NCBI GenBank assembly: GCA_028875055.1
Contig: JAPPGG010000030.1
Location: 1 to 40,739 of the forward strand
Direction of reading: 5' to 3'
Source: Chloroflexota bacterium
GTDB lineage: Bacteria; Chloroflexota; Dehalococcoidia; Lucifugimonadales; UBA3495
Length of the DNA: 40,739 bases
The position numbers were made by a program, and so were the translations under genes. This document shows positions 4,539-29,897 of this stretch, piece by piece. The notes below the pieces were generated by a model. It saw only the letters and a program-made list of their open reading frames with translations, was not told the DNA's origin and did not search any database. How positions within the stretch are numbered: the stretch's first letter is position 1; every line of letters starts with the position of its first letter.

Positions 4539-5216
4539 ATGAGACGCTGGCCAGTTACGGCTGGGATTATCGTAGTCATCCTGCTCCTTGCTGTTCTCGC
4601 CTTATTCCTCCTCGTGACCGGCGGCGATGAGGGGCAGACCGAAACGGGCTCTTCCCAGCCAATAGTTTCTACTCCCGTGAGGGACGCCAGTCCAGTGACA
4701 GGGACCGATACGACAGAGGCCCCTCCGGCCGAGGGACCCCCCGGATCCGGAGACGACCGTGCTGCCCTGGTAGCACTCTACCAAGCCACAGGGGGGCCGG
4801 GCTGGCTCGACAATACCAACTGGCTCACCGATGCTCCCATCGGCGAGTGGTTCGGCGTGGATACCGACGCCAGCGGCCAAGTGTTCCAGCTGGACCTCAC
4901 CTCAAATGAATTGAAGGGACCCTTGCCGCCGGAGCTTGGCAGCCTGGCCTCCCTGGAGTACCTGATCCTGATCAACAACTCCCTGACCGGTCCCATCCCC
5001 CCGGAACTGGGCAACCTTTCCAAATTGAGGGTGCTGGACCTGCCCGATAATGAGCTAAGGGGACCGATACCCGCTGAGCTGGCCAACCTTCCCAACCTGG
5101 AGAACCTGAACCTGGGCGGCAACCCGGCGGGCAATATGTTCACGGGCTGCGTGCCCGGCGGCCTGGACCAGGTGAAGAATAACGACCTGGATTTCCTGGA
5201 CCTGCCTTCCTGCTGA
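4539..5216 (+). CDS. Membrane-anchored small leucine-rich repeat protein
   Basis: GGGAGG lies seven bases before the ATG. Residues about 6-27 form one hydrophobic segment without a lipobox Cys, so the protein is probably anchored by an uncleaved N-terminal helix. After a Thr/Pro/Glu-rich linker there is an LRR N-cap of the form RAALVALYQATGG...NWL...GEWFGV. It is followed by about four 24-residue LRRs of the plant-type consensus GPIPPELGNLxxLxxLxLxxN. The end carries a Cys pair in the pattern FTGCVPGGL...LPSC. The same N-cap and Cys-paired C-cap recur in the neighbouring large proteins, so this small protein looks like a free-standing copy of their LRR module. A likely role is surface binding to protein or glycan, which is inference. 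Confidence 0.85.
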   Translation: MRRWPVTAGIIVVILLLAVLALFLLVTGGDEGQTETGSSQPIVSTPVRDASPVTGTDTTEAPPAEGPPGSGDDRAALVALYQATGGPGWLDNTNWLTDAPIGEWFGVDTDASGQVFQLDLTSNELKGPLPPELGSLASLEYLILINNSLTGPIPPELGNLSKLRVLDLPDNELRGPIPAELANLPNLENLNLGGNPAGNMFTGCVPGGLDQVKNNDLDFLDLPSC

Positions 5217-9861: not shown

Positions 9862-12800
9862 ATGATGAGACGAGCAGTGGTAAGGGCACTGACAATCCTG
9901 GCAGTAACCGTCCTGGCAATCGCGGGGACACTTTCCTGTAGCGGCGATTCCGATGGCCCGGATGCATCCTCTCCGGTGGGGACAGCGGGGCAAACGCCTT
10001 CCAATAACGCCGCTCCGGCCCAGAGCCAGGGCGGCACGCCACAGGCTTTGGTCGGAGCCGATGCTTCCACCGGCACTTTGCCAGGCTCTGCCACGGTCAG
10101 TTCCAGCCAGTTGACCGGCCCTGGAGACCTGGCCTGGCAGGACGGCAGCCTGGATCTCCTGGAAGAGAGAGTTGCCGCGTCGCTGATTGCAATAGAGAAC
10201 TCAGCCCCTGCCGCAGCCGGCGTCCTGCTGGCCCTGCCCTGGGTTGCCGACGAGGTGATGCTGGAGGAACGGCTGGCCCTGCCCCGAATGGAAGAAATAG
10301 CGCGGGAGGACCCAGCCCTGGCACAAAAGGTCGTTGCGTTGCCTTGGCTAGCCGACGATGTCGACGGCCAAGAGCTGCTCGCCCTGGAGAGCATCACCGA
10401 TATCACCAAGCAGGATGTGGGACTTGCCCGCGCCGTGGTTGAAGCCCCCTGGACAGCTCAGGAAGTCACCAGCGAGTTGCGGCTGACCCTGGCGGTGATA
10501 GCCGACATATCTGGGAACGACCCGGCTTTGGCTAGGCGAATCGCCGGGTCCGCACAAGCGGCGGACGGTATCAGCGGCGCCGATCTGGTCCAACTGACCA
10601 ACTCGGAAAATTACTACTTCGACCGTATCAGGGAGGAAGCTCCTGACCTGGCCCGGGAACTTTCCGGGATGCCCTGGGTCGCCCGAAACGTCACCGGCGC
10701 GCGGATAGAGTCCCAGCCTGCGGTCGGTTTGCTGGCAGCCCCCCTGGCCACCGACCTGACCTCCCACGAGCTGTGGGCTCTCTACGTATTCCGGGTCTTG
10801 GCCGGGGTCGACGAATCCCTTGCCCTACGCGTGGCAACCTTCTCCTGGCTTTCCGACGGCATGAGCCGGGACGAGGAAGATATCCTCATCGCCCTGGCTG
10901 AAATTGCGGAAGAGGACCTTGCCTTGGCCAATCGCCTAGCGGATCTCCCCTGGCTTTCAGACGAGATAGTGTACTTCAAGGCCAGGGCCTTCACCATCAT
11001 GGGCTCACTGGCCAAACATGACACCAGGAACCTGGATCGCCTAATCAGCCAGCCGTGGTTCCAGGATGGGCTTAGCCTGGAGGAAGCGGCCGTCATCGTC
11101 GTCTCCGGGGCCGGGTGCGGGAACGTAGGTCAGTTCTGGGAGCTTGTCGGCGAGAACCCTCAGGTACGCTCCGAAGTCCTTTCACTGCCCTCGGGCGATG
11201 TAACCCTCTTGGCTGTGAAACGGGGGTCCCAGGGCCCCATCGACGACAGTGTTTTCGAGGGGATGCGCACCTCAATTACAGTCATGTCAGGATTCATGGG
11301 GCAGTCCTGGCCACGCGACCAGGCCATCACCCTTATTGAACCTGACTTCGTTTCCTACACAGACCCCGAGGGCTTATATACCGGAGAGTTCATAATCGTC
11401 AGGGATGAACGCGCGACAGACGTGGTTTACCACGAAATGGCCCACCACTACCACTTTGGCCCTGACTGGATAAATGAGGGAGGGGCGGAGTTCCTTACGC
11501 ATTACACCTTTCAGGTTGAAGGACAAACAGCGCTGGACACCCGACACCGAAGTGTCCAGGCGAGTGCGGCTCGCTGCCATCCCAACGTCCAGGCCTTGCT
11601 GGAGGCATCAGCGGGATGGTCCCGTTATTTCTACCTCGAGAACAGGAACTGCCACTACGTCATGGGCGAGTATTTTCTGCTGGGAATGTACTTTGGCCTG
11701 GGTCCTGAGGTGGTATCCGCTGCCTTGTGGGACCTCCATGAAATCCTGACCGTGACCGAAGCCGACATCTACCAGGCCTTTTTTGCCAACACCCCGCCCG
11801 AGCAGCAGGACCAGTTCCGGTCGCTCTACGCCGTCCTCCACGGAGGCACGGTTCCGGAAACCGAAGTGCGGCCCGTGTCCGCATGCGACCCCGCCAGGGA
11901 CCGGGAAGCGTTGGTGGCTCTGTACAATGCCACCGATGGCCCCAACTGGAAGCTGGTAGGCGGGTGGCTGAGCGACGACCCCATTGGAGAGTGGCGGGGC
12001 ATCACTCCCGACGGCGATGGCTGCGTGGCCCATCTGTTGCTCCCGGACAACGGGCTGGCCGGCACTTTACCCCCGGAGATGGGCAACCTCTCCAGCCTGG
12101 AGTGGCTGGACCTCAGCCACAACCGGTTGACCGGTGAGATACCGGCAGTGCTGGGACAGCTAAACCACTTGCAAAGGTTTGTCCTTTCGGGGAACCAATT
12201 CTCCGGTCCCATTCCCGCGGAACTGGGCGGCCTTCAGGACCTGGAGTTGCTGGCGCTGGCCAACAATCAGCTGTCAGGGCCCATACCTCCGGAATTGGGC
12301 AACCTGACCAGCCTGCTGAGCCTGGAACTTAGCCTTAACCGGCTGACCGGTCCCATACCACCGGAACTGGGCAACCTCGGGAGCCTGGAAGGCCTTGGGG
12401 CTGAATCCAACGAATTGGCTGGGCCCCTGCCGCCGGCTTTGGGAAATCTGGCCAACCTGGAATGGTTGAGGCTGGGTTTCAACCTCATTACAGGGGAAAT
12501 ACCGTCAGAACTGGGCAACCTCAGTAGCGTGCATACCATTGGGCTCAACTACAACCAGTTGACCGGACCCATACCGCCAAGCCTGGGTGGACTCCCGGAA
12601 TTGAAGGATCTCCAACTTCAGGTAAACCAGTTGACCGGACCCATACCGCGGGAAATCGGCAATCGGTCCGAACTCCACAATCTGCAACTTCAGGTAAACC
12701 AGCTGAGCGGAGAAATACCGCCTGAGCTGGGCAACCTGTCCAGCCTGGTGCGCCTGAATTTGTCGTCAAACCCCTTGACCGGACCCATTCCGACTGAACT

Positions 12801-13056
12801 GGGAGAGCTAAACAGCCTGCAATATCTGGACCTGTCCTATTCGGGACTCACCGGGCCGATTCCCGAGGAGTTGGGGTTCCTTTCCCCAAGCGCCCAGATA
12901 ATCCTGGTGGATACCGAGCTTGCCGGCCCCTTGCCGGCAACCTTGCAAAGCCGGGATACAGTGGCTTTCCGGGCCTCCCAGATTCCCGGCCCGGACTACG
13001 CGACCTCCTACTCACAGGGGCTGGAGGCACACCGGGCGTTTCTTGGCGGCCAGTAG
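9862..13056 (+). CDS. Giant exported protein: PWxxDG repeats, metalloprotease core and a 13-unit LRR block
   Basis: The N-terminus is a typical signal segment ending in AGTLSC. The Cys is placed as in a lipoprotein, but the lipobox is imperfect. About nine PWxxDG-type repeats span residues 85-415. They are followed by a LSLPSGDVTLLAV segment and the protease core HEMAH at 524-528 with DWINEGGAEF; E539 is the probable third zinc ligand. A second half begins with the LRR N-cap EALVALYNATDGPNW near residue 680. About 13 plant-type LRRs (GPIPPELGNL) run to near the C-terminus. Unlike the LRR blocks in neighbouring genes, this one lacks the GCxP...C cap and ends in a short polar tail. AGGAG lies seven bases before ATG 9862; a second ATG follows directly. 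This gene and the one at 5303 share the same order: repeat, protease, LRR. Confidence 0.87.
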   Translation: MMRRAVVRALTILAVTVLAIAGTLSCSGDSDGPDASSPVGTAGQTPSNNAAPAQSQGGTPQALVGADASTGTLPGSATVSSSQLTGPGDLAWQDGSLDLLEERVAASLIAIENSAPAAAGVLLALPWVADEVMLEERLALPRMEEIAREDPALAQKVVALPWLADDVDGQELLALESITDITKQDVGLARAVVEAPWTAQEVTSELRLTLAVIADISGNDPALARRIAGSAQAADGISGADLVQLTNSENYYFDRIREEAPDLARELSGMPWVARNVTGARIESQPAVGLLAAPLATDLTSHELWALYVFRVLAGVDESLALRVATFSWLSDGMSRDEEDILIALAEIAEEDLALANRLADLPWLSDEIVYFKARAFTIMGSLAKHDTRNLDRLISQPWFQDGLSLEEAAVIVVSGAGCGNVGQFWELVGENPQVRSEVLSLPSGDVTLLAVKRGSQGPIDDSVFEGMRTSITVMSGFMGQSWPRDQAITLIEPDFVSYTDPEGLYTGEFIIVRDERATDVVYHEMAHHYHFGPDWINEGGAEFLTHYTFQVEGQTALDTRHRSVQASAARCHPNVQALLEASAGWSRYFYLENRNCHYVMGEYFLLGMYFGLGPEVVSAALWDLHEILTVTEADIYQAFFANTPPEQQDQFRSLYAVLHGGTVPETEVRPVSACDPARDREALVALYNATDGPNWKLVGGWLSDDPIGEWRGITPDGDGCVAHLLLPDNGLAGTLPPEMGNLSSLEWLDLSHNRLTGEIPAVLGQLNHLQRFVLSGNQFSGPIPAELGGLQDLELLALANNQLSGPIPPELGNLTSLLSLELSLNRLTGPIPPELGNLGSLEGLGAESNELAGPLPPALGNLANLEWLRLGFNLITGEIPSELGNLSSVHTIGLNYNQLTGPIPPSLGGLPELKDLQLQVNQLTGPIPREIGNRSELHNLQLQVNQLSGEIPPELGNLSSLVRLNLSSNPLTGPIPTELGELNSLQYLDLSYSGLTGPIPEELGFLSPSAQIILVDTELAGPLPATLQSRDTVAFRASQIPGPDYATSYSQGLEAHRAFLGGQ

Positions 13057-13274: not shown

Positions 13275-15809
13275 ATGTGTAAACTGTCTGTATTGTCGCT
13301 GGCGATCTTCCTTGGGATGGCAACCTTTGCCTGCCAAAGCGAGGCCCCGGATAGCGCCGGTAGCTTCCCTACCGCAACGCCAACCGAGGCTCCCTCCCTG
13401 CAGACGATTCCACCAACCATCCAGCCTGTGGAGCCTCCGTCGCCAACACCTGAGCCGACCCATGCGGCGCTCACTACGGCATCCTTGAAACGGGGACCAG
13501 CTCCTACTCCCAGCCAGACCCCCCTATTTGCAGATATGAGTGTCCCGACATACGAGCCGCATCCTCAGGAATTGCAGGCGTTGATCGCCTTCTATAACGC
13601 CACCGGCGGGCCCAACTGGAAGAATAACCGGAACTGGCTGAGTGACCTGCCTCTTCACCGTTGGTACGGCCTCAGGATCTTCGACGGAAGAGTAGGCCAG
13701 CTGAGGCTGCCGGAAAACGAGCTGACCGGCGAGCTGCCGCCCGATATGGGAGGCCTTACCAATCTGGTCGTCCTGAACCTGAACGGCAACCGGCTGAACG
13801 GAGAGATACCGGCGGAACTGGGCAGCATAAAGGGCCTGCTGGAATTGGACCTGGGCGGGAACGAATTGACCGGAAGAATACCCGGCGAGATCGGGAATCT
13901 CACCCGTCTTGGCAAGCTCAACCTTGCGGGCAATAGCCTGGCGGGAGAATTCCCTCCCGAGATGGGAATGCTCTCCAGGCTGGAGACCCTGGACCTGGGT
14001 GGAAACGAGTTGGCGGGATGCATCCCCCGCGGCCTGCTTGAGGGGGAACAAATTCGCGTCGAAGGGCGTGGAATGGTGCATTCAACGGAATTTCACGACG
14101 GGTTTGACTTTGGGGGACTGGAGCCCTGCGCCGATGCAATCGTCGCCACCCCGGTTCCTACTGCCACCCCGGCGCCCACGCCGACTGCCGCAGTCGAACC
14201 CACGCGGGCCCCAATTTCAACACCTGTTCCGGCGCCCGACGCCACTCAGGTTGCGGGGGGGCAGCCCACGCCACTCTACCCAAGTACGCCGACCGCCGTC
14301 CCCGTCAGTGCACTGTCCCTGTCCAGCCTGGCGTGGTATCGAGACGGGCTGACCGAACGGGAGCAGCATGCGGTAGCCGGACTGGAAACCATGGAACGCG
14401 AACTTCCGGCCCTTTACCGGACCATCCTGGGATGGGACTGGGTGAAGGATGGCGTCAGCGAAAATGACGAAGCATGGGCACTGGCTAGCCTGCAATCCTA
14501 CACTGCTGAAGACGAAACGCTGATACGCCAGTTGCTCTCGCTACCCTGGTACAGAAACAGAGGCAAATACGGTGGCTTCGCATCTATCGATATTCTGCGT
14601 ATTAGCTGGAAGGAACCCTCTGTCGCCGTCCACGTAGCCAGCCTGCCCTGGATTGCGGACGGGATCACACACCACGAAAGGTTTACCCTGTCCACAATAG
14701 ACGATCTGACGGCCATCGACCCCGCACTGACCCTCCGGGTTCTAAACATGCCGCGGCTCTCCGATGCGGCCCTTCCCTGGCAGGAAAAACGTATCGTTTC
14801 TCTTACAGCTGATTTGGCCCGCAAGGACGTCAACCTGGCCCACACCTTCCTGGACGCGCCCCTATTTGACCTGCCCCTTGACGGCGCCGGTCCCAGGGAG
14901 GCCCTTAATTTCGAGATAGTTGTCAGGTTGCCCACGCTGATCGAGCGCGGACTTTGGGACCGCATCACCAGCCAGTCCTGGTACCGGGACGGTCTGACGG
15001 AAGAGGAACTCATACTCATTGGCGCCGCCTACGAACTTCGAGATAACAGGGATGCCGCCATCGAGATTATCGACGGAGTGCCCACCGGACGCCACATCAG
15101 GGTGGAGGAGGATTATTCCCTGCCCCTGGGCGGCAAGGTAAAGCTCTACGCCGTAAGCCGGGACCCGCAGGCGCTGAATGAGGTGTTCGAGCTCAACCGC
15201 ACTGCGGTGGTTGGAATCGAGGACTACATCCGGGTGCCCTACCCCAATACTTACTCCGGAGTTTTTCATGAGCCAACAATTGGCTCCAACTACCGAACTC
15301 TCTTCGTGAAAGTTGTCAACTCCGGGGAGTACAACACCTACCACGAGGTGGGGCACAGCTATTTCAGGAATGGCAATATGCCGAAATGGCTGTCGGAAGG
15401 AGCCCCCGAATTCCTTACGAGTTACCTGATTGAAGAGGGCGAACTCGACGGACAATATCGCCTTCTCGGCTGTCCGCAAATTGGGGTGAACACGGTGGCT
15501 GAATCCATAGCGTACCGGGAAAAGCTATTTAACACCGGGAGAGGAGTGACAGCAGATGCGGACTGTGCATACACCATCGGCAGAAAGTTCCTGTCGGTAA
15601 TGTATGTGGAACTGGGACCGGATGTAATTGCAACCTGGCTGAGGGAGTTGTACCTGGCGGGCCAGAACAAGATTGACCCCGAAACCAGCAGCGATGTGAG
15701 ATTGACTGAGGCCGAAATTTACCAGGTATTGCTCTCTAACACGCCGGCCACCAAGCGTGAGGACTTTCGCAGCCTGTACCGGGAGCTCCACGGAGGACCT
15801 GTACCCTAA
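13275..15809 (+). CDS. Exported LRR-metalloprotease protein with permuted domain order
   Basis: The N-terminal signal segment ends in MATFAC, a weak lipobox with Cys20. After a Thr/Pro linker the LRR N-cap LIAFYNATGGPNW (about residue 100) and about six LRRs come first, ending in a Cys-paired cap GCIPRGL...LEPC. A long Pro/Thr-rich linker (about 290-345) follows. Then come about seven PWxxDG-type repeats (WYRDGLTEREQ, PWIADGITHHE, SWYRDGLTEEE and others), several of them degenerate. The protease core is HEVGH at 690-694 with KWLSEGAPEF, so E708 is the probable third zinc ligand. The C-terminus lies about 135 residues after the protease motif, ending with YRELHGGPVP. The corresponding segment in the paralogues reads YRRYYGALPG or YAVLHGGTVP. 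GGAGG lies four bases before the ATG. The LRR module sits before the protease here and after it in the genes at 5303 and 9862. Confidence 0.87.
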   Translation: MCKLSVLSLAIFLGMATFACQSEAPDSAGSFPTATPTEAPSLQTIPPTIQPVEPPSPTPEPTHAALTTASLKRGPAPTPSQTPLFADMSVPTYEPHPQELQALIAFYNATGGPNWKNNRNWLSDLPLHRWYGLRIFDGRVGQLRLPENELTGELPPDMGGLTNLVVLNLNGNRLNGEIPAELGSIKGLLELDLGGNELTGRIPGEIGNLTRLGKLNLAGNSLAGEFPPEMGMLSRLETLDLGGNELAGCIPRGLLEGEQIRVEGRGMVHSTEFHDGFDFGGLEPCADAIVATPVPTATPAPTPTAAVEPTRAPISTPVPAPDATQVAGGQPTPLYPSTPTAVPVSALSLSSLAWYRDGLTEREQHAVAGLETMERELPALYRTILGWDWVKDGVSENDEAWALASLQSYTAEDETLIRQLLSLPWYRNRGKYGGFASIDILRISWKEPSVAVHVASLPWIADGITHHERFTLSTIDDLTAIDPALTLRVLNMPRLSDAALPWQEKRIVSLTADLARKDVNLAHTFLDAPLFDLPLDGAGPREALNFEIVVRLPTLIERGLWDRITSQSWYRDGLTEEELILIGAAYELRDNRDAAIEIIDGVPTGRHIRVEEDYSLPLGGKVKLYAVSRDPQALNEVFELNRTAVVGIEDYIRVPYPNTYSGVFHEPTIGSNYRTLFVKVVNSGEYNTYHEVGHSYFRNGNMPKWLSEGAPEFLTSYLIEEGELDGQYRLLGCPQIGVNTVAESIAYREKLFNTGRGVTADADCAYTIGRKFLSVMYVELGPDVIATWLRELYLAGQNKIDPETSSDVRLTEAEIYQVLLSNTPATKREDFRSLYRELHGGPVP

Positions 15810-15976: not shown

Positions 15977-17120
15977 ATGGAGTATTTTGGCGAATTAGAG
16001 GACCGGAGGATTGAGCGGTGTCAACGGCACAAGCTGCTGGACATTATAGCCATAGCCATTTGTGCCACCATCTGCGGGGCGGACAATTGGTCTCACGTAG
16101 CCTTGTTCGGCAGGGGAAAGTAGAGTGGCTGCGAACCTTCCTGGAATTGCCCAACGGCATTCCATCTCACGACACCTTCGGCCGGGTGTTCTCCCAGTTA
16201 GACGCTGAAGAGTTCCAGCGATGCTTCATGGAATGGACCCAGGGGGTGGCCGATTTAGTGCCTGGAGAAGTGGTGGCCATTGACGGCAAGACGGCGCGCC
16301 GCACCCATGACGGACCTGCTGGCAAGCGGGCGTTGCACCCCGTATCAGGTACGGGGCAGGCACTGGTCAGCGCCTGGGCCTCGGCAAACACCTTGACGCT
16401 GGGACAGGTGCAGACGGAGGAGAAGTCCAACGAAATCACCGCCATACCCAGGTTGCTGGAACTGTTGGAACTGGAGGGCTGCCCGTTTCCAATGAACTGA
16501 CCATTGACGCCATGGGCTGCCAGAAGGAGATTGCCCAGGGCATTCTGGACCGTGGGGCTGAGTATGTGCTGGCGGTGAAACAGAACCAGGGGCGGTTACA
16601 TGAAGACTTGAAGGACCTGTTTGAAGAGGCCCAAGCCACAGGCTTTGAGGGTGTACCCCATGATTATGCCACTACCTTGAACCAGAACCATGGACGCCAG
16701 GAGCGAAGGGAGTGCTGGGCCATCAGCGACCCCGACTGCCTGGAGTATCTGAGCACCGGTCGGGAGTGGCCGGGGTTGCGCTCGGTGGTCAAGGTAGTGG
16801 GACGCAGGGAAGCGGAGACGGGTATCACCGTGCAACCCCGATACTTCATCAGCAGCCTGGATGCCTCGGCGGAACAACTGCTGGCCACGGTCCGGGCCCA
16901 CTGGAGCATCGAGAATTCCCTGCACTGGAGCCTGGACGTCACCTTCCGAGAAGACCAATGTCGGGTGCGCAAAGACCACGGCCCCCAGGATATGGCCACC
17001 CTGCGAAATATCTCCCACAACCTGCTAAAACTGGAAACCAGCCTGAAAGTGGGCATCCAGGGCAAACGCCTCCATGCCGGCCGGCGCCAAGATTACTTGC
17101 TTAAGGCCCTCCGCAGTTAA
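15977..17120 (+). pseudogene. ISAs1-family transposase, two frame changes
   Basis: Translation from ATG 15977 gives MEYFGELEDRR...LLDIIAIAICATICGADNW, the usual ISAs1 start. It then hits TAG at 16121. The homologous text continues in the -1 frame (VEWLRTFLELPNGIPSHDTF) and on to VVAIDGKTARRTHD, which holds the first catalytic Asp. Near 16485 a second change of frame is needed to reach LTIDAMGCQKE (second Asp). IENSLHWSLDVTF holds the catalytic Glu. Alignment by eye suggests about 14 extra bases at the second break. All three DDE residues and both ends of the protein survive. The first break lies on the heptamer G GGA AAG directly before the TAG, so either one base was lost in a homopolymer or the site could slip. 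As it stands I treat the gene as broken. Confidence 0.85.
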
Positions 17121-19957: not shown

Positions 19958-20566
19958 CTACTTTGCCCCGCCCTCAATCATGGAAGTCATTTCCTCGACA
20001 CTCTTGTCGCCGAAATCGGGTTCTCCCCCGTTGATTCGGTAGGTGGGTGTGCCGAATACCCCCAGGTCTTTGGCTTCCTGGTGTTCGTCCAGGACGTACT
20101 GGCGGTACTGACCCGAGTCCAGGGCGGCCGACAGCTCGTTCCGGTCGAGTCCGCACTCCTCGCCCAGGGCCAGCAGTACTTCCTTGCTGCCCAGGTCAAC
20201 ACCATCTTCCCAGTAGGCCCTGGCGGCGGCGTGATGGAACTCGCCGTCCACGCCCTTGTCCTTGGCAAAGGCCGTGGCTTCGTGGGCCATATTGGTGTTT
20301 GGGCTCAGCGAAGGCCGGCGCATCACGATGCCCGCTTCCCGTGCCCTTTCATTCCAGGCGTCGTTAAGCTCAGTTTCCGTCTCACCCTCCCGAAGCGGTC
20401 GGGGTTCGCCCTCAATGGGACGCTCGGGGGCCAGGAGATATGGCCGCCGGTCTATTGCCGCTCCCGTGGCTTCCGCTGCCTTGTCCAGCCTGACCAGGCC
20501 GACGTAGCACCAGGGTCAAGTGTAGTCGTACCAGACGACCACGTTGGCTACGCTGCTGGTGGTCAT
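19958..20566 (-). CDS. FrnE-like DsbA-family oxidoreductase, probable selenoprotein
   Basis: Read from ATG 20566, which has AGGAGG eight bases upstream, the frame is open for 202 residues except for one TGA at codon 17 (20516-20518). The text around it is VVVWYDYT-TGA-PWCYVG. DsbA proteins of the FrnE type read DxxCPWCYxG there, so the TGA sits exactly on the first redox cysteine of CxxC and would give U17-P-W-C20. The family continues in the same frame: LSPNTNMAHEATAFA, a helical insertion, and GVFGTPTY with the conserved cis-proline. A hairpin with a GGUC loop lies 20 bases after the TGA, within the spacing known for bacterial SECIS elements. The enzyme should act as a cytoplasmic thiol/selenol-disulfide oxidoreductase. 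A plain nonsense mutation is the alternative. The selA/selB/selC/selD genes are not in this window. Confidence 0.78.
20483..20503 (-). promoter_or_regulatory. Candidate bacterial SECIS hairpin
   Basis: On the minus-strand mRNA, GCCU (20499-20496) pairs with AGGC (20491-20488) around the loop GGUC. An outer GUC/GAC pairing (20503-20501 with 20485-20483) extends the stem with one bulge. There are 20 bases between the TGA and the loop, and the loop begins with G. Both agree with the known bacterial SECIS pattern: a small loop with G in the first two positions, about 16-37 bases after the UGA. Confidence 0.6.
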
Positions 20567-20709
20567 AAGTGAGCCCTCCTCTTCGTGCGATTCTGAAGTG
20601 GGGCGTATTGTATCACGGTGGACGACCCCCGGCGCCAGTCGCCCAGCTTTCCCCAAAGAGAATGAAACCCGGCAGATTATACTTGGCCAATCCCGTCCGC
20701 AGTTCCGCT

Positions 20710-26810: not shown

Positions 26811-28265
26811 TCAGCCCTCCCTGGGCCGCCCGCGCAGCGCCGAAATCCCCATGGCCAGCAGCATCAGGCAGGTCATGGCCAGGTAGGTATAGCGCAGGCC
26901 GGTGGTAAAGGCACGTCCAACTCCCTCGGATGCATCCTGGGTCACGGCGGAAAGACTGGGTTCAAAACCCATTGACCCCATGGTGGCGGTCACGATCGCC
27001 GTTGCCACTGCAATGCTGACCACATTGCCTGCGTTGCGGACCAGGTTCAGGAAGGCTGAAATTACCCCGTAACTTTCCCTGCTCACGGAACTGAGGACTG
27101 AGCTGGCGTTGGGTGAGAAGAACAGCCCCATGCCGCAGCTTTGAAGAATCAACCCGGCCAGAATTAACGCCAGCGGAGAGTCCACCGTCAGGCGGGAAAG
27201 GATGAACAGGCTGACCGATGTGAAGGCCAGGCCGCTAACGGTAAGAACCCGCCAGCCGTAACGGTCGGACAGGCGCCCGCTTACCGGACCCAGGAACAGC
27301 ATGCATACCGCGCCGGGCACCAGGGTAAGGCCGGTCTGGGTGGGACTGTAGCCGAGGACTCCCTGAAGGTAGAAGGGGGTCAGGAAGAATATGGAAATGC
27401 CGCCCATAAACGTCAGGAAAGCAGCGGACACCCCGCAGGAGAATACCGGCATCCTGAAGTACCGAAGCTCCAGCATGGGGTGGGCAGTGCGCAGTTCCCA
27501 CCAGATGAAGCAGGCCAGCAGGATTACAAAACCGGCCAGCCCGGCCAGGATGAAGGGAGAGTCCCAGCCGAACCTGTGGGCGTAGGTGATGGTCACCAGG
27601 AATATGAGGAGCATGCCGGTGGACAGGGTCGCCCCCTGCCAGTCAAATCCCGACCTCTTTTCGCGGGAACCGGACGTTCCTTCGGAGTCCTGATCGGACA
27701 GCACCGCCAGGCACAGGCCTACGCAGAGAGTTACCAACGGCACGTTGACCAGGAAGACGGCCCGCCAGCCAAACAGGTCCAGAAGGAAGCCTCCCAGGGC
27801 CGGACCCACTATGGCCCCGCTGCTGACCACCCCCATAATCAGGCCTATCGCCTTTCCCCGTTCACTGGCGGGGAATGAGGCGGCTACGATGGCCATGCCC
27901 GTCCCCTGGGTCATTGCCGCCCCTGCCCCCTGCACGACGCGGGAGCCGATGAGCAGCCCCAGGTTGTCGGACACAGCGGCGCCGATTCCAAAGAGGGCGA
28001 ACACCACGGAACCAATGATATACACCTTCTTGAGCCCGACGATGTCGGAAAGGCGGCCCATGGGCAATAACAGGGCACTGATGGTAAGGGTGTAGCTGAT
28101 TACCACCCATTGAACGGTGGGAATATCGCTGTTGAAGTGGCCCGCAATGGGGTGCAGGGCCACGTTGACGCCGACCTGGTCTGCCACGGACGCAAAGGTG
28201 CCGATGGCCACGGCGATGAAGGCCCACCACTTGTAATTTGTGCTTTGCCTGACGGCGACAATCAT
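26811..28265 (-). CDS. MFS drug:H+ antiporter of the DHA2 (14-helix) type
   Basis: At 484 residues with many hydrophobic segments this fits DHA2 exporters such as EmrB or QacA. Motif A is seen as GRLSDIVGLKKVY between helices 2 and 3. The antiporter motif C is seen as SGAIVGPALGGFL in helix 5. The first helix carries DQVGVNVALHPI, the usual DHA2 D1-type motif with the Asp. The protein sits in the cytoplasmic membrane and should export small lipophilic or cationic compounds with proton exchange; the substrate is unknown. No clear ribosome site precedes the ATG. A second exporter gene lies upstream in the same orientation, 123 bases away. Confidence 0.87.
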   Translation of the reverse strand: MIVAVRQSTNYKWWAFIAVAIGTFASVADQVGVNVALHPIAGHFNSDIPTVQWVVISYTLTISALLLPMGRLSDIVGLKKVYIIGSVVFALFGIGAAVSDNLGLLIGSRVVQGAGAAMTQGTGMAIVAASFPASERGKAIGLIMGVVSSGAIVGPALGGFLLDLFGWRAVFLVNVPLVTLCVGLCLAVLSDQDSEGTSGSREKRSGFDWQGATLSTGMLLIFLVTITYAHRFGWDSPFILAGLAGFVILLACFIWWELRTAHPMLELRYFRMPVFSCGVSAAFLTFMGGISIFFLTPFYLQGVLGYSPTQTGLTLVPGAVCMLFLGPVSGRLSDRYGWRVLTVSGLAFTSVSLFILSRLTVDSPLALILAGLILQSCGMGLFFSPNASSVLSSVSRESYGVISAFLNLVRNAGNVVSIAVATAIVTATMGSMGFEPSLSAVTQDASEGVGRAFTTGLRYTYLAMTCLMLLAMGISALRGRPREG

Positions 28266-28388: not shown

Positions 28389-29696
28389 CTACTCCAGCTG
28401 CCTGGTGCTCTGGAAGAAAACGGCCTGCAAAATAGTGAAAAACAGCGAAGCGGCAGCCATTACCGTAAATACCCAGGCAGGGTCCCAGAATGCTATGAAC
28501 AGGCCGATGATGAACGTAGCCAGGGGTGTAATACCGTGGTCGAGCATGTAAATGCTCATCACCCGGCTGCGAAATTCGTCGGGGACGACCGTTTGAATCA
28601 GCGTGCTGTTGGCCACACGAAATACGTACTGGCTGAACCCCAGTCCCGTCAGCATGGCGAAGGAGACCCACAGCCAGTCGGACAGGGAAAAGAGCAGTAT
28701 AAAGGCACAGCCGCCAATCAGTCCCAGGAAGACGGCCAGGCCCTTGCGCATCAGGTAGCCGATTCCAGCAATAAAGATGGCGGCGGCCACCCCGCCAATA
28801 CCCACTGCCGACGCCAGGGCTCCCCCGGCTCCGATTTCCCTCCCCAGCACGTCCACGGTAAATACGGGCAGGAAGAATATTACGGGCTGGAACAGCAGGT
28901 TGGGAATCAGGGACATGACTATGAGCTGCAGAATCCGCTTTTCGTTCTTGACGTAGCGCAGGCCCGAAATAAGGCTGGCAAATGCGGAGCCGCCGGCTCC
29001 TCCCCGCCGTTCAGTGCGATATGGCAGCTTAACGGGAATCAGCAATAGGACAATGACGATGTACAGTATGGCTTCGATGAGGAAGTTCCACTTGAAACCC
29101 AGGGAAGCCACCAGGAGGGCCCCGATGGCAGGCGAAATGATCCGGGTGCTGGGGTAAACCATGCCATTCAGAGACAGGGCGCTGGCCAGCGCGTTGCGGG
29201 GCACCGTGTTGGCCACCATGGCCTGGCGCACCGGCTGGATAATGGTATGGGCAATACCGGCAATGGTCATGTAGATGAAGGGGTGCCACCACTGCAGGGG
29301 GCCGGTCAGTTCCTCGGCCTCCAGGTCGGTAAGAATGACCAGGACCGCAAAGCCGATGGCCGCCACTGCCATTACGGACTGGGTGACCATGACCAGCTTG
29401 CGCCGGTCCACGCGGTCGCCCAGCACGCCTGCCCACGGGCCGATGATCAAAACTGGGAGGGTGCGAATGCCCACAACCGAGCCTGTGAGCAGCGCGTTTC
29501 CGTCGGTCAGGTGATGGACCAGCCAGCCAATGGTAAAGAGCTGAAGCCACTGGGCGCCGATAGCCACAAAATTTCCGGCCCAGATGTACCGGAAATCCTT
29601 GTATAGCCTGGCGGTGGAAATGGCGTCGAGTCCGGCGACTCTTCTGCGGGGGGGCGATTCTACCGGGGCCGCCTGCCGCGGCGCGTTACTTGCCAT
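28389..29696 (-). CDS. MFS exporter of the DHA3 (EntS/MefA) type
   Basis: The protein of about 435 residues has the N-terminal pattern DFRYIWAGNFVAIGAQWLQLFTIGWLV and motif A as GVLGDRVDRRKLV. Both are typical of the DHA3 family that exports siderophores or macrolides. About twelve hydrophobic segments are visible, with a cytoplasmic loop after the sixth (LPYRTERRGGAGGSAF). The start is either ATG 29696, preceded closely by AAGG, or TTG 29711. The gene probably forms an export pair with the following DHA2 gene. The substrate cannot be predicted. Confidence 0.85.
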   Translation of the reverse strand: MASNAPRQAAPVESPPRRRVAGLDAISTARLYKDFRYIWAGNFVAIGAQWLQLFTIGWLVHHLTDGNALLTGSVVGIRTLPVLIIGPWAGVLGDRVDRRKLVMVTQSVMAVAAIGFAVLVILTDLEAEELTGPLQWWHPFIYMTIAGIAHTIIQPVRQAMVANTVPRNALASALSLNGMVYPSTRIISPAIGALLVASLGFKWNFLIEAILYIVIVLLLIPVKLPYRTERRGGAGGSAFASLISGLRYVKNEKRILQLIVMSLIPNLLFQPVIFFLPVFTVDVLGREIGAGGALASAVGIGGVAAAIFIAGIGYLMRKGLAVFLGLIGGCAFILLFSLSDWLWVSFAMLTGLGFSQYVFRVANSTLIQTVVPDEFRSRVMSIYMLDHGITPLATFIIGLFIAFWDPAWVFTVMAAASLFFTILQAVFFQSTRQLE

Positions 29697-29897
29697 GAAC
29701 CTTGACGTCAACCAAGAAGGTCAACCCTTCCTTCGGATATAAGCGCAACTTGACGATACTAGCACAAACCGTGCTGACTTTCATTGTTTTGATAGAAAGT
29801 GGGCTGGATTATTGCCACTTCCGATAAGGAGGGTTTCAGGCAGGGCCAGGACAGCCCACCCCTGGACCTGTGAAACCCTGAAGGGGAGAGGCGCTCC

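Follow-up and report, generated by a model that had tools for sequence, protein, structure and literature searches.

Does the TGA that interrupts a gene near the middle of this stretch of DNA mark a broken reading frame, or does it specify an amino acid? The window, by which we mean the whole stretch of 40,739 nucleotides that was analysed, belongs to a SAR202-type marine bacterium, and the gene in question lies on its minus strand at 19958-20566, with an ATG at 20566-20564, 202 codons running from 20566 to 19961, and a TAG that ends at 19958. A ribosome binding site, AGGAGGG (20574-20580, minus strand), stands 7 nt 5' of the ATG, and a strong terminator-like hairpin of 11 bp followed by CTTCTTTTT lies 3' of the gene at 19929-19905 on the same strand. 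The frame is open throughout save for a single TGA at 20518-20516, codon 17, where the context WYDYT-U-PWC-YVGL puts it in the place of the first Cys of a CPWC motif, and a standard list of open reading frames accordingly retains only a 122-aa remnant that begins at the GTG at 20326. All of these features had been proposed in a sequence-only reading, which took the gene for a new DsbA/FrnE-like selenoprotein with a UPWC active site, and each of them held. A codon-composition scan of the window for other genes with in-frame TGA codons returned apparent shadow frames and stops of neighboring genes only, and it is uninformative because it missed the selenoprotein gene as well.

When the frame is read through the TGA, the protein is a member of the FrnE subfamily of DsbA in which CPWC has become UPWC, as had been claimed. 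The Pfam DSBA domain (PF01323) matches residues 9-195 at 3.4e-31, and Deinococcus FrnE ranks first in a profile search (4.8e-43) and is the nearest solved structure in a fold search (TM 0.83). An AlphaFold model of the read-through frame, built with 38 sequences, has a pLDDT of 95.2 and places residue 17 immediately before a helix at residues 18-34; thioredoxin-fold active sites likewise sit directly before the long first helix. The FrnE of Deinococcus radiodurans (DR0659, 5cnw/5cp1), a DsbA-like cytoplasmic oxidoreductase, carries CPWC at the matching place, with Cys where the window protein would have selenocysteine (Sec). It also possesses a C-terminal CX4C motif that the window protein lacks. 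This extra motif serves regeneration in the D. radiodurans enzyme, but it is also missing from the FrnE proteins of D. maricopensis and S. roseofulvus (PMC8945050), and being less than universal in FrnE, it is not strictly defining for the subfamily. Identity as a 2-hydroxychromene-2-carboxylate isomerase or kappa glutathione S-transferase (GST) was considered and rejected: these proteins have the DsbA-like fold in common with the window protein (TM 0.72-0.76), but FrnE is closer by both profile and fold, and the active site here is a redox U/CPxC.

Homologues show how codon 17 has been kept. In 87 homologous loci that were read at the aligned codon, TGA occurs in 79 and a Cys codon (TGC or TGT) in the other 8, so that every TGA-bearing homologue has the TGA at the identical position and every homologue without it has Cys, the Cys/Sec exchange that had been suggested as a check. 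We consider it very likely that the product is a DsbA-family protein of the FrnE type with Sec as the attacking residue of the CPWC motif, the UGA of its gene being decoded through tRNA-Sec, SelA, SelD, and SelB with the help of a downstream hairpin. The alternative that survives best, although we give it very little weight, is that a UCA tRNA, either mischarged or of another UCA-decoding kind, reads the UGA mostly as Cys or Ser, with Sec the unusual outcome; Cys does work at this site in homologues. The coding capacity of the window's own genome (98% complete, 75 contigs) argues against it. SelA (541.7 bits), SelB (345.2 bits, above the cut-off), SelD (385.5 bits), and a tRNA-Sec with anticodon TCA (UCA) are all present, where an absence of selB or selC had been named in advance as grounds for abandoning the selenoprotein, and the SelD of this genome (locus L050) is itself a Sec form with the motif CAGUAAKI.

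Distribution across the class also argues against a reading as Cys or Ser. Across 393 genomes sampled from the class, SelA was found in 91 of the 105 with a TGA form of the gene versus 11 of the 32 with Cys forms only, a strong co-occurrence (Fisher p 2.5e-8) for which genomes were taken as independent, with kinship among them still in the counts. Among the 14 TGA-form genomes without SelA, 11 have a tRNA-Sec scoring 66-82 bits, and in the 10 Cys-form genomes without SelA that were scored, no candidate exceeds 51 bits, a score typical of ordinary long tRNAs. The other three TGA-form genomes (G268, G333, and G430), which are 72-90% complete, yielded no SelA and no persuasive tRNA-Sec. Two genomes, G214 and G328, each carry two high-scoring tRNA-Sec genes (82 and 80 bits, and 72 and 67 bits, respectively), pairs that could be assembly duplications or true second copies.

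A smaller chance still attaches to the possibility that the UGA serves as a regulatory stop, with the 122-residue C-terminal piece as the functional product. Such a frame does exist, but the N-terminal UPWC portion that it omits lies within the predicted fold and is strongly conserved, with D14, C/U17, P18, and C20 invariant across homologues, as is P174.

A pseudogene, whether through nonsense mutation or sequencing error, would explain a lone in-frame stop near the 5' end and a truncated entry in the list of reading frames, and we regard its probability as negligible. The same-codon TGA recurs in dozens of independent assemblies and in a paralogue of the same genome, and the close relatives of the window gene have no lesions besides the TGA, although further inactivating mutations in them had been named as a possible refutation. 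Downstream of the TGA, dN/dS is 0.05-0.11 within the genus and 0.14 to the next genus. Conservation of the TGA across homologues together with these low ratios excludes a nonsense mutation; the evidence against chance, which the earlier reading had argued would rarely strike this codon, is this conservation and not the hairpin of one sequence. Homologues occur in 49 of 59 relatives, nearly all of the strong matches having exactly one TGA, and in 137 of the 393 genomes of the class sample and 78 of 400 genomes of a phylum sample, mostly with one TGA each. The named relatives are SAR202 and Dehalococcoidia metagenome-assembled genomes; plasmid records gave distant matches only, the best among the matches listed being below 34% identity, and a single weak relative turned up among viral contigs. 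A genetic code in which TGA specifies an amino acid throughout the genome, such as Trp in code 4, would account for one in-frame TGA but is equally negligible, excluded because the tRNA-Trp of this genome has anticodon CCA and many homologues terminate in TGA, and opposed as well by the Cys, rather than Trp, of the TGA-less homologues and by window genes that are open under table 11.

A bacterial SECIS element is expected to be a short hairpin that closely follows the UGA and whose apical loop begins with G. The window gene has a putative element of this kind at 20503-20483 (minus strand), GUCGGCCU-GGUC-AGGCUGGAC, with 7-8 pairs; its apical GGUC, at 20495-20492, lies 20 nt past the UGA. The hairpin therefore exists as had been described, but its stability (z of -0.67 against shuffles of a 60-nt stretch and -0.03 against synonymous shuffles) means that it provides no evidence in this single sequence. 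Across the family, a hairpin at a distance of 20 nt from the UGA, its loop beginning in GG, is favored beyond what codon choice explains. In 60 nonredundant Sec genes the region is more stable than synonymous shuffles (mean z of -1.67, with 97% below 0), and in the 8 Cys genes the same test gave values around zero, with one exception. Column-wise permutation of synonymous codons between genes gave a z of -4.7 for stability, and the loop begins 19-21 nt past the UGA in 70 of 78 Sec genes. RNAalifold found no consensus structure for all 60 segments, probably because two bulge registers mix, and for the window clade alone its consensus was no better than synonymous permutation. A crude SECIS-like rule was satisfied by 76 of 78 Sec genes and also by 6 of 8 Cys genes, failing to separate the two; with the near-zero z of the window gene, this makes the support for a SECIS element statistical in kind.

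These data, read together with what is known of FrnE, suggest a model in which UGA 17 would be decoded by tRNA-Sec(UCA). SelA would charge this tRNA, using selenophosphate supplied by SelD, and SelB, which may recognize the coding-region hairpin just 3' of the UGA, would deliver it. Sec, whose incorporation at residue 17 is predicted from sequence, would attack a substrate disulfide, or be attacked in its oxidized form, giving a mixed selenenylsulfide with the substrate that Cys20 could resolve before a cellular reductant restored the enzyme; Pro174 would be the conserved proline of the cis-Pro loop. The enzyme probably acts as a thiol/selenol-disulfide oxidoreductase of the cytoplasm, a location suggested by a first strand that no N-terminal extension precedes, and its redox direction and substrates may be expected to follow those of FrnE. 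Gene neighbors include none that indicate a pathway; a divergent amidohydrolase gene upstream is conserved in the genus.

Elsewhere in the window, three clustered leucine-rich-repeat proteins (4539-5216, 9862-13056, and 13275-15809, plus strand) are of a eukaryote-like kind, and eukaryote-like repeat proteins are frequent in sponge-associated bacteria. A DDE transposase split between two frames (16018-16500 and 16512-17120, plus strand; PF13808 and then PF01609) is probably a decayed insertion element, and two neighboring MFS transporter genes occupy 26811-28265 and 28389-29711 on the minus strand.

The same genome encodes a second FrnE-like selenoprotein, L002 (contig 46, 224416-224931), which also has one TGA. 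It is 44% identical to the window gene, with the TGA at the same codon and a similar hairpin whose loop, GGAG, lies at the same distance from the UGA. The two differ in their clade motifs, DYIUPWCYVGLERVD for L002 and DYTUP[WFYH]C for the window gene. On a tree built from 87 proteins, 6 state changes are needed to place the 8 Cys genes, and well-supported branches force at least 4 of these; exchange between Sec and Cys has therefore occurred repeatedly. The window gene falls in an all-Sec clade of 18 loci that stands on a long stem branch and, in our sample, is restricted to its family and one genome of the same order, and L002 falls in another all-Sec clade. One tentative interpretation, which we hold to be possible but on balance doubtful, is that the window clade represents a functionally distinct, selenium-dependent FrnE beside an older Sec paralogue, so that a sponge/marine SAR202 lineage would possess a pair of dedicated Sec-FrnE enzymes that act on different substrates.

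The claim that the selenoprotein itself was new did not survive. The 2005 Sargasso Sea study describes, from nine sequences, a DsbA-like selenoprotein with a UxxC motif that it assigns to COG2761 (PMC1088965), the COG in which Deinococcus frnE is placed (PMC1978522). Later lists include it as "DsbA 1," with 63 sequences in GOS (PMC2398784), and as "DsbA-like protein form 1" (PMC13188914), and among sequenced bacteria one survey found 45 DsbA-like selenoproteins distributed over 41 organisms (PMC5029168). As described, this family, whose published sequences include AACY01178397 and NIP15863.1, and the window protein share the FrnE COG, PF01323, Sec as the leading residue of UxxC, a putative SECIS just downstream, and a marine origin. 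Judged by that description, the window gene belongs to the family, and it adds, with good support, one more member to a group of selenoproteins already on record. The accessible portions of PMC1088965, PMC2398784, and PMC13188914 do not name Chloroflexota or SAR202 as a source of the DsbA-like selenoprotein. A study of sponges noted that most symbiont bins contain SelA and SelB (PMC5649159).

What is added here is modest: the spread of the family throughout Chloroflexota, a lineage whose genomes carry two Sec paralogues each, and a clade that consists of Sec forms only and has a long stem branch, all for a gene of the kind that annotation pipelines would truncate. On the tree, Sec forms are intermixed with Cys forms, and genomes that have the Sec machinery with genomes that lack it, so that these bacteria offer a good natural series for the exchange of Sec to Cys. 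Sec-FrnE is common across Chloroflexota, and its occurrence in 105 of the 393 genomes sampled from the class indicates that selenium is routine in the cytoplasmic thiol redox chemistry of these mostly uncultured organisms.
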